Below, piece by piece: positions 43,094 to 47,390 of a stretch of 64,000 nt of DNA; positions within the stretch are counted from its first letter, which is position 1; every line of letters starts with the position of its first letter. The translations under genes were made by a program, and so were the position numbers. The notes under the pieces were generated by a model. It did no database searches, had not been told where the DNA came from, and worked only from the letters and a program-made list of their open reading frames with translations. This stretch comes from Anaerocolumna sp. AGMB13025 (GTDB lineage Bacteria; Bacillota; Clostridia; Lachnospirales; Lachnospiraceae), in assembly GCF_029689925.1 (NCBI RefSeq), contig NZ_CP121445.1, forward strand, positions 2,411,001-2,475,000, in the 5' to 3' direction.

Positions 43094-43226
43094 CTTAAAG
43101 TGTAATCACTTTCTATATATAACGGCATATATTAAAAGTGATAATATTTTTTAGGATAAAAGCTGAATGAAAATATAATAAGGAAAAGGAGTGCCCAGTC
43201 AAGATTCTTTCAGCTGTTTATTTTAG

Positions 43227-43268: not shown

Positions 43269-44252
43269 ATGAATATAAAAGAATATTATATGAACAACGC
43301 AAAGTCCTTCTCATATTCGGATGCAAGGCAATTTCCAGGGGTCGGTCAAAGTTTTCGCACAAGCCCCAGAATATATCCGGCACAGATGGAAACCCAGTCA
43401 CTTGGCAGCCTGCAGGTGAATTGTGTAACCCAGAATGGTTTCAGGCCGATCCCCGGTGCTACGGTAAGCATTGCTTATACCGGTGATCCCACCTCTGCGA
43501 TAGAACAATTGACTACGGATGAGTTAGGACGTACTGAGCCCGTTGAGTTACCGGCACCTCCGTTGGAATACAGTCTGGATCAGACCATTTTCGAACAGCC
43601 TTATTCGGAATATACGGTAACAGTAACTGCGCCGGGGTATGAAACAGTTCAAGTATCCGGTACAGAGTTATTACCTACGGTAAATGCAGTTCAGCCAATA
43701 CAGATGATTCCGGCTCCGGAAACTACCAGAGGGGAGCGTTTTGTAATACCGCCTCATACGCTTTATGGTGATTATCCCCCTAAAATAGCAGAGGCAGAGA
43801 TCAAGCCAACGAATGAAACCGGTGAAATTGTATTAAGAGAAGTAGTGGTACCGGAGTTTGTTATTGTTCACGATGGACCGCCTACGGATACCTCAGCAGG
43901 AAATTACTATGAACGTTACAGAGATTATATCAAAAATGTTGCCTCCAGTGAAATCTATGCAACCTGGCCGGAATCAACCATAACTGCGAATATTTTAGCT
44001 ATTATGTCCTTTACTTTGAACCGGGTATATACAGAATGGTATCGAAACCAAGGTTATAATTTTACCATTACCTCCTCCACTGCCTTTGACCATAAATGGA
44101 TGAGGGGAAGAAATATCTACAGCAATATCGGTACGGCAGTGGATCAGGTATTTAATAATTATTTATCAAGGCCTAATGTACGGCAGCCTATTCTGACCCA
44201 GTACTGTGACGGCAGGAATGTAACCTGCCCGGGGTGGATGACCTTATGGTAA
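43269..44252 (+). CDS. sleC: Spore cortex-lytic enzyme SleC, 5' part, interrupted by the element at 44236
   Basis: 327 codons, of which 323-325 belong to SleC. N-terminal prepro region and beta-domain (LGSLQVNCVTQNGFRPIPGA), then VPEFVIVHDGPP and the SpoIID-like lytic transglycosylase core YIKNVASSEIYATWPES (catalytic Glu228 expected), SFTLNRVYTEWYRNQGYNFT, TAFDHKWMRGRNIYS and LTQYCDG. It stops at CPGWMTLW where intact SleC continues GWMTQWGSKDLGDQG (the SpoIID GMSQWG-type motif). The missing part is in frame at 46842. In Clostridium perfringens and C. difficile SleC degrades spore cortex during germination after Csp cleavage. As it stands the fragment lacks the end of the catalytic domain. 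Confidence 0.9.
   Translation: MNIKEYYMNNAKSFSYSDARQFPGVGQSFRTSPRIYPAQMETQSLGSLQVNCVTQNGFRPIPGATVSIAYTGDPTSAIEQLTTDELGRTEPVELPAPPLEYSLDQTIFEQPYSEYTVTVTAPGYETVQVSGTELLPTVNAVQPIQMIPAPETTRGERFVIPPHTLYGDYPPKIAEAEIKPTNETGEIVLREVVVPEFVIVHDGPPTDTSAGNYYERYRDYIKNVASSEIYATWPESTITANILAIMSFTLNRVYTEWYRNQGYNFTITSSTAFDHKWMRGRNIYSNIGTAVDQVFNNYLSRPNVRQPILTQYCDGRNVTCPGWMTLW
44236..44243. other. Left attachment core (attL)
   Basis: GGATGACC, codons 323-325 of the sleC 5' part. Chromosomal arm on the left, element arm (TTATGGTAACAGGGTA) on the right. Confidence 0.8.
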
Positions 44253-44271
44253 CAGGGTAGGGTTTTGCTGT

Positions 44272-45741
44272 TTATTTGAAATAAATATCAAGTGTACCCT
44301 CCTGTCTGTTGATTACTATTTTTTCTATGATTGCTTTTAAGGCTTTATTCTTTGTCTGATTAGCCGCTTTGTCAGAAGTAAAAAGCTCATAAGCCGTTAG
44401 GATATGGCTGGAAGGGGTTACCTTGTCTTCAGCTTCATAAGTTTTTTCTAAGAGTTTTATTCGTTCTGTTAAGGCTTTCTGCTCTTTTTTTAGGTTGGAT
44501 TTGCTTTCTTCGTATTCCTCTAAGGTATCGCTGCCGTTTATATAAGCGCTTTTAATTTTAGTTTCCTTAACAATTAATTTATCGAGCTGCTGTTTCAGCA
44601 AATCAAGCTCACCGGATTCTTTCCATATTCTTTTTTCAGCCCTGAACCATTCCAGGGTGTCTTGCATATAGGTCTGACCCAATACTTTTTCAAGAGTTTC
44701 TCTCATTACCGGCATAAGCATATTTTCTGATATGCTGTTGCTTACCGGGCATTTTCCCTTGGTATAACCGTTGCAGCAAAAGTTTAAGTACCTGGAATTT
44801 TTAACTTTAGAGGCGGTCATACTCTGTCCGCAGTTACTGCATTTTAATAGTCCTGATAACCAGTGCTTATATTCCGTAATGGGTCTTGCCTTACGTTTAC
44901 TGGATCCTTCTGACTCCATTCTTGTCTGGGCAAGATCATATAATTCTTCTGAGATAATGGGTTTATGCTGTCCTTTTACAAGAATCCAATCTGAGGGATT
45001 CCTATTGGTCTTTGTGGCAGAACGGTTCTGATTCCAGCGGATATAACCCTTGTACATGGGGTTTTTTAGTATATATTCCACGGATCTGCGTTCAAAAGAG
45101 TTATTCTGTCTTGTTTTAAACCCATAAAGATTTAAAAATTTTGCTATCTGAAAGCAGCTCAGACCATCATAAGTATATTTTTCAAAAATTATTTTTATAA
45201 TAGCTGCTTCTTCGGAGACAACAACAGGCAATTCCCCGGAATGCAGGATTTTGTATCCTAAAGGCGGATTAGCCTGATAACCACCTCGAAGGGCTTTTTC
45301 AGTCATACCCTTAATGACTTCATCGGCAAGGTTTAAAGAATAATATTCTGCCATAGCTTCCAGCATAGCTTCTAAAATTACACTGAATTTGTCGTCTTCG
45401 AGCTGCTCGGTAATGGATATTACCTTAATATCGCATTCCTTGCGCAGCAGGGATTTATACACGATGCTGTCTTCTCTGGACCGGCTGAATCTGTCGAACC
45501 GGTGGACTAAGATAATGTCAAAGGGCTTTGGCTTTTTTCTGGCAGCAGTTATCATCCTCATAAATTCCGGTCTTTTTTCCGCTTTTCGCCCTGATATTCC
45601 CTCATCTATAAAGATATGTTCATTTTTAACGGCTATCGTATTGGTTTTTGCATATTCAAGTAGTAATCGTTTCTGGGCATCGGGAGAATATTCCGCCTGA
45701 TCTTCTGTACTGACACGGATATAGAGTGCCGCAGTCTGCAT
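44272..45741 (-). CDS. Large serine recombinase (SpoIVCA-like)
   Basis: 489 aa. Resolvase catalytic domain (residues 1-150) with AALYIRVSTEDQAE (nucleophile Ser11), DEGISGRKAEKRPEF, VHRFDRFSRSREDS and a FSVILEAMLEAMAEY stretch; recombinase domain with PPLGYKI and YILKNPMYKGYIRWN; zinc ribbon LLKCSNCGQSM ... YLNFCCNGYTKGKCP (about 295-335); coiled coil (about 370-425). Size and layout match SpoIVCA, the mother-cell recombinase that excises skin from sigK. AGGAGCTG ribosome binding site. Transcribed against sleC, its stop lying 28 bases inside the left core. Confidence 0.95.
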   Translation of the reverse strand: MQTAALYIRVSTEDQAEYSPDAQKRLLLEYAKTNTIAVKNEHIFIDEGISGRKAEKRPEFMRMITAARKKPKPFDIILVHRFDRFSRSREDSIVYKSLLRKECDIKVISITEQLEDDKFSVILEAMLEAMAEYYSLNLADEVIKGMTEKALRGGYQANPPLGYKILHSGELPVVVSEEAAIIKIIFEKYTYDGLSCFQIAKFLNLYGFKTRQNNSFERRSVEYILKNPMYKGYIRWNQNRSATKTNRNPSDWILVKGQHKPIISEELYDLAQTRMESEGSSKRKARPITEYKHWLSGLLKCSNCGQSMTASKVKNSRYLNFCCNGYTKGKCPVSNSISENMLMPVMRETLEKVLGQTYMQDTLEWFRAEKRIWKESGELDLLKQQLDKLIVKETKIKSAYINGSDTLEEYEESKSNLKKEQKALTERIKLLEKTYEAEDKVTPSSHILTAYELFTSDKAANQTKNKALKAIIEKIVINRQEGTLDIYFK

Positions 45742-45838
45742 TTTTATCAGCTCCTTAGTTGATTATATTTTATGAAAACTGTAAAAATGCCCGTTTTAGC
45801 AATATGTACAAGTCCTGGGACATAAATTAGATCAGGAG

Positions 45839-46027
45839 GTGATAAGTATTAAGAAGGATATAAAAGGTAGGATTTATGTTAATATGGACGGGGAAATAAA
45901 ATCCTGGGATACCTTATCAGAAGAAGTAAAAAAGGAAAAAGCAACTGCTCTTAATGATAGGGCACTAAGAGCAGCTGGTTATCTCCCGGTACAAAAACCA
46001 CCTGAAACTACGAAACAGCCGGAGTAA
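45839..46027 (+). CDS. Small unknown protein of the sleC element
   Basis: About 60 aa, charged: KDIKGRIYVNMDGEIKSWDT, EEVKKEKATALNDRALRAAG, proline-rich end. Not recognised; could be DNA-binding (a recombination directionality factor would be this size), but no motif proves it. The frame opens at GTG 45839, which overlaps AGGAGG (45833-45838). The codon at normal distance from that site is ATT at 45848 (IKKDIKGR), so a rare ATT start is possible. Confidence 0.5.
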   Translation: MISIKKDIKGRIYVNMDGEIKSWDTLSEEVKKEKATALNDRALRAAGYLPVQKPPETTKQPE

Positions 46028-46033
46028 GCCTGG

Positions 46034-46327
46034 TTATTGATTTTCTAGAGCCCATAAATGCTGGTTAATAAAATACGTTAAATTGATTCGTCTCTGGAGA
46101 ATATCGGAGTTATATAAACAGCAATAAGTCATACAACCGTTCCCGGGCTTTGTAGAGCTTATAGAATCAATTCTGACCTTGCACACATTACCGTATAAAT
46201 CCATAAGTCCCATGTATACCGGCAGGATTTTACCTTCGATATTAAACATTGCAATTACAGAAACCGGCTGATATTTTGAATAATCAATTGTTACATTTGG
46301 TGTATTGTTTGTTTCGAAAAATGGCAT
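46034..46327 (-). CDS. Unknown protein of the sleC element
   Basis: 97 aa, MPFFETNNTPNVTIDYSKYQ then PVSVIAMFNIEGKILPVYMG and a cysteine-containing NGCMTYCCLYNSD. No known domain recognised; compact beta-rich look. GAGGTG seven bases before ATG 46327 sets the start, over the longer frame from 46357. Confidence 0.6.
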   Translation of the reverse strand: MPFFETNNTPNVTIDYSKYQPVSVIAMFNIEGKILPVYMGLMDLYGNVCKVRIDSISSTKPGNGCMTYCCLYNSDILQRRINLTYFINQHLWALENQ

Positions 46328-46415
46328 AAGCATCACCTCATTCTTAAAGTATAACAAACAAATGTTCGATAATCAATGGAAAGATAATACATTTTATAAG
46401 GAAAGCAGGTGATAT

Positions 46416-46814
46416 ATGATCAAAAAATCAAAAAAGAGAAGAGCAAGCACTAATTTTCTGCCATTTAGTAAAAAACTATTAGAGTATTCACGGTTTGAAT
46501 GCTGGGTAATGACAGTGGCACTATTTTTCATGCAGGGGTTTGGGATTGACACCGGTAATCTCTATCAGGTCTGTTTAGCAGGTTGGGGCGGATATGCCGT
46601 TGCAAAGGCTTTATATTATAATATGGCCAAATCAGACCATCAGATTCAGCTGCTAAAGAAAATCGAGCCGGATGCCGCGGGTAAAATTAAGGATATAATA
46701 ATTGAAAATACGGAAAAAATATTAAAAAGCAATATTGAAGAAGATATTGAGGATACGGAAAATTCAGGTATAGGAAAAATGGAAGTGAAGACGAATGAAG
46801 AGAAAACCAATTAA
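46416..46814 (+). CDS. Small membrane protein of the sleC element
   Basis: 132 aa. Basic N terminus (MIKKSKKRRASTNF), one or two hydrophobic segments (ECWVMTVALFFMQGFGI; VCLAGWGGYAVAKALYY, about residues 28-72), then a charged, acidic tail (KNIEEDIEDTENS-type). Resembles small membrane proteins carried by phages and integrative elements but no family is certain. AGCAGGTGATAT ribosome binding site. It ends 25 bases before the right core. Confidence 0.6.
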   Translation: MIKKSKKRRASTNFLPFSKKLLEYSRFECWVMTVALFFMQGFGIDTGNLYQVCLAGWGGYAVAKALYYNMAKSDHQIQLLKKIEPDAAGKIKDIIIENTEKILKSNIEEDIEDTENSGIGKMEVKTNEEKTN

Positions 46815-46839
46815 TAGAATACATACCCTGTTGCGATAC

Positions 46840-46847
46840 GGATGACC
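46840..46847. other. Right attachment core (attR)
   Basis: GGATGACC with the element arm (TACCCTGTTGCGATAC) on the left and sleC sequence (CAATGGGGTTC) on the right. Confidence 0.8.
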
Positions 46848-47228
46848 CAATGGGGTTCAAAAGATCTTGGTGATCAGGGACTTACGCCAATACAGATTCT
46901 TCGGAACTTTTACGGTTCCAATATGTATATTAATTCTGCCAATGAAGTTGCAGGAGTACCCTCCTCCTGGCCGGGTGCCAATTTAACAATTGGTTCCAGG
47001 GGTGACAGCGTAAGACAGATGCAGGAACAATTAAATGCTATTGCAAATGTATATACTGTAATACCCAAAGTTGCTGTAGATGGGGTCTTCGGTCCACAGA
47101 CAGAAGAAGCGGTAAAAGCATTCCAACAGACCTTTGGTCTTCCCGCTAACGGAATTGTGGATTTACCAACCTGGTATCGGATTTCAGAACTTTATGTAGC
47201 GGTTACCAGAATAGCAGAATTACAATAA
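46842..47228 (+). pseudogene. sleC: Spore cortex-lytic enzyme SleC, 3' part (separated by the element)
   Basis: 128 codons. Starts in the right core with MTQWGSKDLGDQGLTPIQIL and RNFYG, the end of the SpoIID-like domain, then a C-terminal PG_binding_1 domain: LTIGSRGDSVRQMQEQLNAI, VDGVFGPQTEEAVKAFQQTF, GIVDLPTWYRISELYVAVT. No ribosome binding site precedes the ATG, so it is unlikely to be translated on its own. Joined to codons 1-323 of the 5' part it gives a 451-aa SleC, close to the roughly 440 aa of clostridial SleC. Listed as a gene fragment; it may be reversible rather than dead. Confidence 0.88.
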
Positions 47229-47390
47229 GCAATTAAAGCAAGACCCAAAAAGCGCAAATTCCTTGCTAGACTCGTCAAACAGTGTGCATTTTGAGTCTGA
47301 ACCACCTGAAAAAGTCATAAGTGAATGATCAGACTCAGAATAAAGCACTTATGAAACATAGCATAATCATGCTTCAATTTGGCTTTAGGG

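Follow-up and report, generated by a model that had tools for sequence, protein, structure and literature searches.

A small serine recombinase element splits the germination gene sleC in Anaerocolumna: a probable skin-like system and its relatives at spore genes

Introduction

The window studied here is a stretch of 64,000 nucleotides from Anaerocolumna sp. AGMB13025 (contig NZ_CP121445.1, positions 2,411,001 to 2,475,000), in which the germination enzyme gene sleC lies in two parts with an element of 2604 bp, carrying a serine recombinase, between them. The locus raises the question of whether sleC has been broken for good by a mobile element, or whether the element leaves it in the course of sporulation, as skin leaves sigK. 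The original prediction took the second view, and the present analysis arrives there as well: the element is very probably skin-like and excised in the mother cell, where we infer the excision, the cell type, the directionality factor and the order of events. This reading is preferred because of an empty site in a relative, elements of the same layout, purifying selection, recurrence at the same dinucleotide and sigma-K-type promoters of sleC. Having the anatomical features of the skin-like class, the window element would with high probability work like skin. Coordinates are window positions throughout; the window genome is called G000 and the comparison genome of the same genus G345.

The split gene and its attachment sites

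43269..44252, plus strand: 5' part of sleC; the crossover follows codon 324, and the frame runs on briefly inside the element
44236..44259, plus strand: attL, with core GGATGACC, crossover TG at 44239-44240 and right element arm ending AACAGGGTA
44241..46844, no strand: intervening element, 2604 bp from TG to TG, absent in G345
46824..46847, plus strand: attR, with left element arm TACCCTGTT, crossover TG at 46843-46844 and core GGATGACC
46842..47228, plus strand: 3' part of sleC, peptidoglycan-binding domain (PDB 9h68_A residues 350-476, E 2.3e-42)

Judged by homology along a structurally solved SleC, the split gene is sleC. The 5' part aligns with residues 61-353 of PDB 9h68_A, an entry titled 'Spore cortex-lytic enzyme pre-pro-form' (E 5.9e-85); both parts together span residues 61-476 of 480 and meet at residues 350-353, and the unsplit copy of G345 matches the same structure with E 1.6e-131. 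Where the parts meet at the TG, 324 and 127 add up to 451 residues. The original prediction had described a sleC split by a recombinase element of about 2.6 kb, with a sequence shared at the junction and a single 451-codon frame on joining, and had proposed a BLASTp of the joined protein and of each half; its frames and coordinates were recovered as described, the shared 8-bp direct repeat GGATGACC standing at 44236 and 46840, 2604 apart, and both halves matching the solved protein.

The element sits between the TG dinucleotides 44239-44240 and 46843-46844. As many as 55 direct-repeat families were counted in the window, and an 8-bp repeat by itself is weak evidence; this one goes beyond chance because it is accompanied by inverted arms, by a TG crossover in every relative whose junctions were read and by contiguous flanks in G345. 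The arms at the element ends (44242-44259 and 46824-46841) are 83% complementary over 18 nt, and inverted arms are the usual look of the attP site of a large serine integrase. A loose attP pattern had no match in the window, as expected for an integrated element.

Regarding the junctions read in relatives, the letters left of the TG agree with sleC at attL; at attR the letter left of it varies (A, C, G, T) and those to its right agree with sleC. Strand exchange is therefore placed at the TG, inside an ATG codon. This TG lies within the codons of the conserved W-M-T-Q-W-G-S motif, and TGGATGA is present in 17 of the 17 unsplit sleC copies carrying the protein motif (unsplit frames lacking it were left uncounted).

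The same letters bear on another explanation, which sees two products that need no rejoining: a peptidoglycan-binding protein with a gene of its own in the 3' part, and a truncated enzyme from the 5' part. The 3' frame of the window does have an ATG in the core, but the base left of the TG is element-derived and the codon reads GTG, CTG or TTG at several other attR junctions, which makes it unlikely that the 3' half is a gene of its own; moreover, no ribosome-binding site (Shine-Dalgarno sequence) was seen by eye before it in the window, and the MTQWG motif is cut in two. The chance that this explanation is right is regarded as close to nil.

Empty site, shared elements and selection

G345 has an unsplit sleC frame of 445 aa, in which the window blocks 43365-44242 and 46840-47232 are contiguous with an overlap of 7 bp, the gene order being kept with a deacetylase gene upstream and carA downstream. 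This is the comparison with an uninterrupted sleC that had been proposed with the prediction, and it yields an empty site within the genus. With these flanks and a TG-to-TG crossover, the attachment sites are so placed that excision would restore the sleC reading frame.

Elements of the same layout and with the same arms stand in the same place in Anaerocolumna sp. MB42-C2 and A. sedimenticola (2654 and 3325 bp). In the carA+carB tree, these two group with the window genome and G345 comes next (forks 91/93 and 80/83); the SleC tree groups the three at 89/91, and the recombinase trees group them likewise. The ratio of nonsynonymous to synonymous substitution rates (dN/dS, Nei-Gojobori) among the three split copies is 0.04 for the 3' half and 0.08-0.11 for the 5' half, values that are only rough because dS is near saturation, a point to be held against the argument. 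From this comparison, purifying selection appears to act on both halves, as it should not in a gene left broken since the common ancestor. Both halves are also open in all 17 copies split at the TG site for which both were in hand, and in an eighteenth, from G059, the 3' piece is complete and the 5' piece ends at the TG site. The two named genomes nearest by recombinase (63% identical) both have sleC split.

Recurrence of the split in sleC

The survey took in 200 Lachnospiraceae genomes, that of the window included, 131 of which had a match to the 5' half of sleC. A recombinase of the window family lies in sleC at the TG site in 12 of the 200 (G000, G024, G028, G166, G054, G057, G016, G164, G194, G095, G047 and G059). 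The split gene is the sole SleC-like match in nine of these 12 (G016, G166, G194, G028, G047, G054, G057, G095 and G059, with assemblies 87-100% complete), whereas G024 and G164 have one second, unsplit match each and G000 has two. Five more genomes of the 200 are split at a second site, near residues 252-260 (T-E-W-Y), by another recombinase group, both halves being seen in G104, G188 and G032 and the 3' half with the recombinase only in G143 and G042. A set of 397 genomes added, among the matches listed, at least six cases at the first site (G210, G306, G256, G217, G225 and G369) and at least one at the second (G364), and in a Vallitaleaceae genome (L036) a more distant family member interrupts the gene where the window gene is split. 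Overall, two recombinase groups interrupt sleC, each at a site of its own. G132 is compatible with the TG site, its 5' half stopping at a contig end, and contig ends prevent an assignment of the sleC state in G074, G163, G098 and G076.

Some further observations were made on these loci. The second-site recombinases have frames of 569-596 aa where uncut by a contig end (loci L048, L050, L055, L056, L083 and L086), and the core of that site is near ACGGAGTGGTA in G104 and G188. In G192 (L057, L058), sleC is broken near residue 198 and recombinase-like frames adjoin the 5' piece, possibly a third site. Metabolic cargo is present in two sleC elements: a family 3 glycoside hydrolase in G016 (L045 1133-3709) and a serine dehydratase alpha chain in G054 (L060 3524-4402).

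Element-encoded proteins

44272..45741, minus strand: large serine recombinase, 489 aa (Pfam Resolvase, Recombinase and Zn_ribbon_recom; trees)
45839..46027, plus strand: 62-aa small protein, candidate recombination directionality factor, with relatives in other elements of the same recombinase family
46034..46357, minus strand: 107-aa protein of unknown function, with a relative only in A. sedimenticola among the elements compared
46416..46814, plus strand: 132-aa protein of unknown function, with relatives in both Anaerocolumna elements (MB42-C2 and A. sedimenticola)

These frames agree with the serine recombinase of 489 aa and the three small genes (62, 107 and 132 aa) originally predicted. 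The recombinase is full-length, with all three Pfam domains present, and matches PHROG 95 (phrog_95, integrase) with E 7.2e-109. Its assignment to CcrB/CcrC or XisF was tried and rejected, as its scores of 166, 151.5 and 116.8 bits do not reach the NCBIfam equivalog cut-offs of 900, 900 and 375.

The 62-aa protein had no Pfam or NCBIfam match, its best PHROG being a family of unknown function (E 0.016); the 107-aa protein had no match in Pfam, NCBIfam or PHROG, and the 132-aa protein none in Pfam or NCBIfam and a best PHROG at E 0.032. With the same three collections, no phage structural gene was recognised among the small frames of the window element. The 62-aa protein is probably the directionality factor, a small protein of this kind (49-67 aa in the first six found) being common to elements whose other cargo differs. 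The GTG start of its frame overlaps AGGAGG (45839-45850), and a better-spaced ATT at 45848 may be the real start.

Promoters and mother-cell expression

43108..43134, plus strand: sigma-K-type promoter upstream of sleC, AC-N16-CATATATTA (pattern match)
45802..45829, plus strand: mother-cell-type promoter with a SpoIIID-like box upstream of the 62-aa frame, ATATGTACAAG...CATAAATTA (only suggestive, the pattern having been chosen after looking)

The pattern AC-N14..17-CATANNNTA occurs upstream of sleC in 21 of 49 rows, against a mean of 1.2 and a maximum of 5 in shuffled sequences (the G057 gene was entered twice, both times as a miss). By this pattern the sleC promoters look sigma-K-dependent, that is, active in the mother cell. 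For the small proteins, 15 of 22 matches entered the promoter count, those left out being L064 (a near-copy of L039), the weak L085, L038, L066, L063, L043 and L050. A SpoIIID-like box followed by CATA...T, based on the SpoIIID consensus, stands upstream of 7 of these 15 frames, against 0.35 in shuffles; the seven are found among the ten frames of sleC elements, with none among the five others, a one-sided chance of about 0.02 (calculated by hand) for a pattern chosen post hoc.

In Clostridioides difficile, the sigma-K regulon includes sleC as well as the cotCB and cotD operons, according to the part of the account available (PMC3789822), CotCB and CotD being the CotJC proteins of this species (PMC11222575, likewise available in part). 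The small directionality factor of its skin element, CD1234, is under the mother-cell control of sigma-E and SpoIIID and the recombinase under sigma-A, as given in the accessible portion of PMC5025042. The promoters of the candidate factors resemble the sigma-E/SpoIIID control of CD1234, and by analogy the arrangement would follow the same logic.

Proposed mechanism and points against it

In the proposed mechanism, the 489-aa recombinase would once have integrated the element at the TG within the W-M-T-Q-W-G-S codons of sleC. During sporulation, and in the mother cell only, an element-encoded directionality factor, probably the 62-aa protein, would be made from a sigma-E/sigma-K-type promoter and switch the recombinase to excision by attL x attR recombination. 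Once rejoined, sleC would then be transcribed from its sigma-K promoter and SleC packed into the spore, after which the rearranged mother-cell chromosome would die while the spore keeps the element.

Several points weigh against this account. An attP pattern had no match in viral contigs, no excised junction or circle was seen, and an upstream search gave no clear mother-cell promoter for the recombinase. The promoter pattern of the small proteins, chosen after viewing the sequences, is only suggestive; it is missing in A. sedimenticola, G016 and G095 among the ten sleC elements and in both cotJC elements tested, where it would also be expected. The window SleC is most identical to that of G345 (84%), the forks that set G345 outside the three split genomes have moderate support, and the insertions into these three genomes may have been separate and later. 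The G047 recombinase breaks off at 294 aa, and its remainder is not found in the vicinity. Furthermore, G000 has two further unsplit SleC-like genes (frames of 445 and 431 aa, 53% and 50% identical) and three SleB/CwlJ-domain matches, the other split-sleC genomes tested having one to three; these paralogues and SleB/CwlJ proteins could make the split tolerable.

Such redundancy is what a selfish integrative element would call for, a phage remnant that landed in the conserved sleC motif and inactivated the gene, its hosts coping by means of paralogues and SleB/CwlJ. Proteins with the SleB/CwlJ domain (Hydrolase_2) are present in 20 of the 20 genomes tested, so that loss of SleC need not block germination, and the G024 element in sleC is a 24-kb prophage with tail sheath, tape measure, baseplate and endolysin genes (L042 5567-18736, L065), to which the cut recombinase of G047 may be added. 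However, halves kept open in all 17 copies for which both were in hand and under purifying selection among the three genomes sharing the element, together with a 3' half that has no evident start of its own, speak against inactivation, and this explanation is judged very unlikely. The skin-like interpretation of the original prediction is strengthened by the empty site, selection, recurrence and promoters; its expectation that germination should fail with the element fixed is weakened by the paralogues and SleB/CwlJ proteins.

The recombinase family beyond sleC

A search by recombinase only, blind to sleC, covered 200 Lachnospiraceae genomes at E <= 1e-60 with up to 7 candidates scored per genome, its counts being lower bounds. 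It gave at least 36 family recombinases in at least 31 genomes: 12 in sleC, 22 beside a cut piece of cotJC, the gene of the spore coat manganese catalase, and 2 elsewhere (G082, G164:C9), so that at least 30 of the 200 genomes have one at sleC or cotJC. Of those adjoining cotJC, 12 have the 3' piece next to them, 9 have the 5' piece, which stops near codons 31-35, and one (G149) has both; G028, G059, G164 and G194 have insertions of both the sleC and the cotJC type. Three cotJC 3' pieces (G164:C32, G111 and G059:C21) align only partly and may be decayed.

L131, L132, L133, L125, L134, L110, L111, L143, L126, L136, L114, L137, L116, L138, L139, L128, L140, L141, L129, L142, L124, L130: the 22 cotJC loci

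A control group of recombinases from the same bacterial family gave 44 matches in 20 of 60 genomes, 30 of which had loci and were examined: none is in sleC and two are at cotJC, from codons 52-59 on, compared with 11 in sleC and 17 at cotJC among 30 loci of the case family with the same flanks. A tree of 50 recombinases, which in part were identified by way of sleC, requires five changes between sleC and cotJC as target, and the target labels cluster strongly on it (none of 500 shuffles gave so low a number).

These positions also help to weigh a phage-type regulatory switch outside the mother-cell programme, in which some cells of the population would excise and re-integrate the element whatever the growth phase, as reported for yin of yabG. 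The full-length recombinase and palindromic attP arms would suit it, and yin is excised at all culture time points in the available part of its description (PMC10747680), but sleC resembles a sigma-K gene, and the location of 34 of the 36 family recombinases found at two spore genes suggests a tie to the sporulation programme; a switch of this kind is considered unlikely. Preferring developmental excision, we find it likely that, in Lachnospiraceae and neighbouring Clostridia, one lineage of recombinases has become specialised for the mother-cell-line spore genes sleC and cotJC, with about five target changes, most members being developmentally excised and some reduced to little beyond recombinase and directionality factor, and that another recombinase group has arrived at a different site in sleC by convergence.

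In the window genome, two pieces of cotJC stand some 7.4 kb apart on either side of a control-group recombinase (G000:C1:6186880-6194804, L159), which, as read from this arrangement, makes cotJC a second split spore gene of the organism. For Petroclostridium L035, about 60 kb of upstream sequence yielded no 5' piece of cotJC. A single DNA target motif common to sleC and cotJC, plausible from L037 (LTQYGG vs MTQWGS), was dropped, the cotJC junctions being elsewhere and variable. More distant family members lie beside (L039, L064) or between (L040) pieces of a gene that, judged by eye, resembles one for an ABC-type substrate-binding protein.

Relation to known elements

Like skin in sigK of Bacillus subtilis and C. 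difficile, the window element is a serine recombinase element in a probable mother-cell sporulation gene whose frame excision would restore; unlike skin, it targets a germination enzyme gene and not a sigma factor, and has 2.6 kb, four frames, no recognised phage gene and a directionality factor that is only a candidate. Similarly, gin in gerE, vfbin in spoVFB, SP-beta in spsM and yin in yabG are site-specific recombinase elements in sporulation genes; gin has 28.6 kb, and SP-beta and yin are called prophages, in contrast to the 2.6-kb window element, and the accessible parts of these accounts mention neither sleC nor cotJC among the split genes (PMC5595907, PMC10747680). The window recombinase family, unlike theirs, recurs in many genera. 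It shares the large serine recombinase superfamily with CcrB/CcrC and with XisF of the fdxN element, far below the cut-offs of those families. The original prediction knew of no skin-like element in sleC, and no report of a split sleC or a split cotJC was found in the open-licence PMC literature, a scope outside which bioRxiv and most subscription papers lie. What is new is that sleC and cotJC are targets, that the element is so small and that a single recombinase family extends over both genes.

Split sporulation genes have so far been a handful of separate cases, and here one recombinase family occupies two spore genes, supplying many sets of recombinase and attachment sites in which directionality control can be compared. 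If the proposed excision is true, such elements would be inherited through every spore, since removal would happen only in the mother cell, which is doomed, and their persistence becomes testable as either this safe passage or a useful lock on a cortex-lysing enzyme. In addition, gene finders will call sleC and cotJC broken in genomes that may well germinate.

As for sigK itself, it was checked in 19 genomes, all except G345 chosen for a split sleC. It is unsplit in the window genome (219-aa frame) and is divided into two pieces, some 4 to 25 kb from each other, in G024, G194, G217 and G032, the first three of which also have sleC split at the TG site and the last at the second site.

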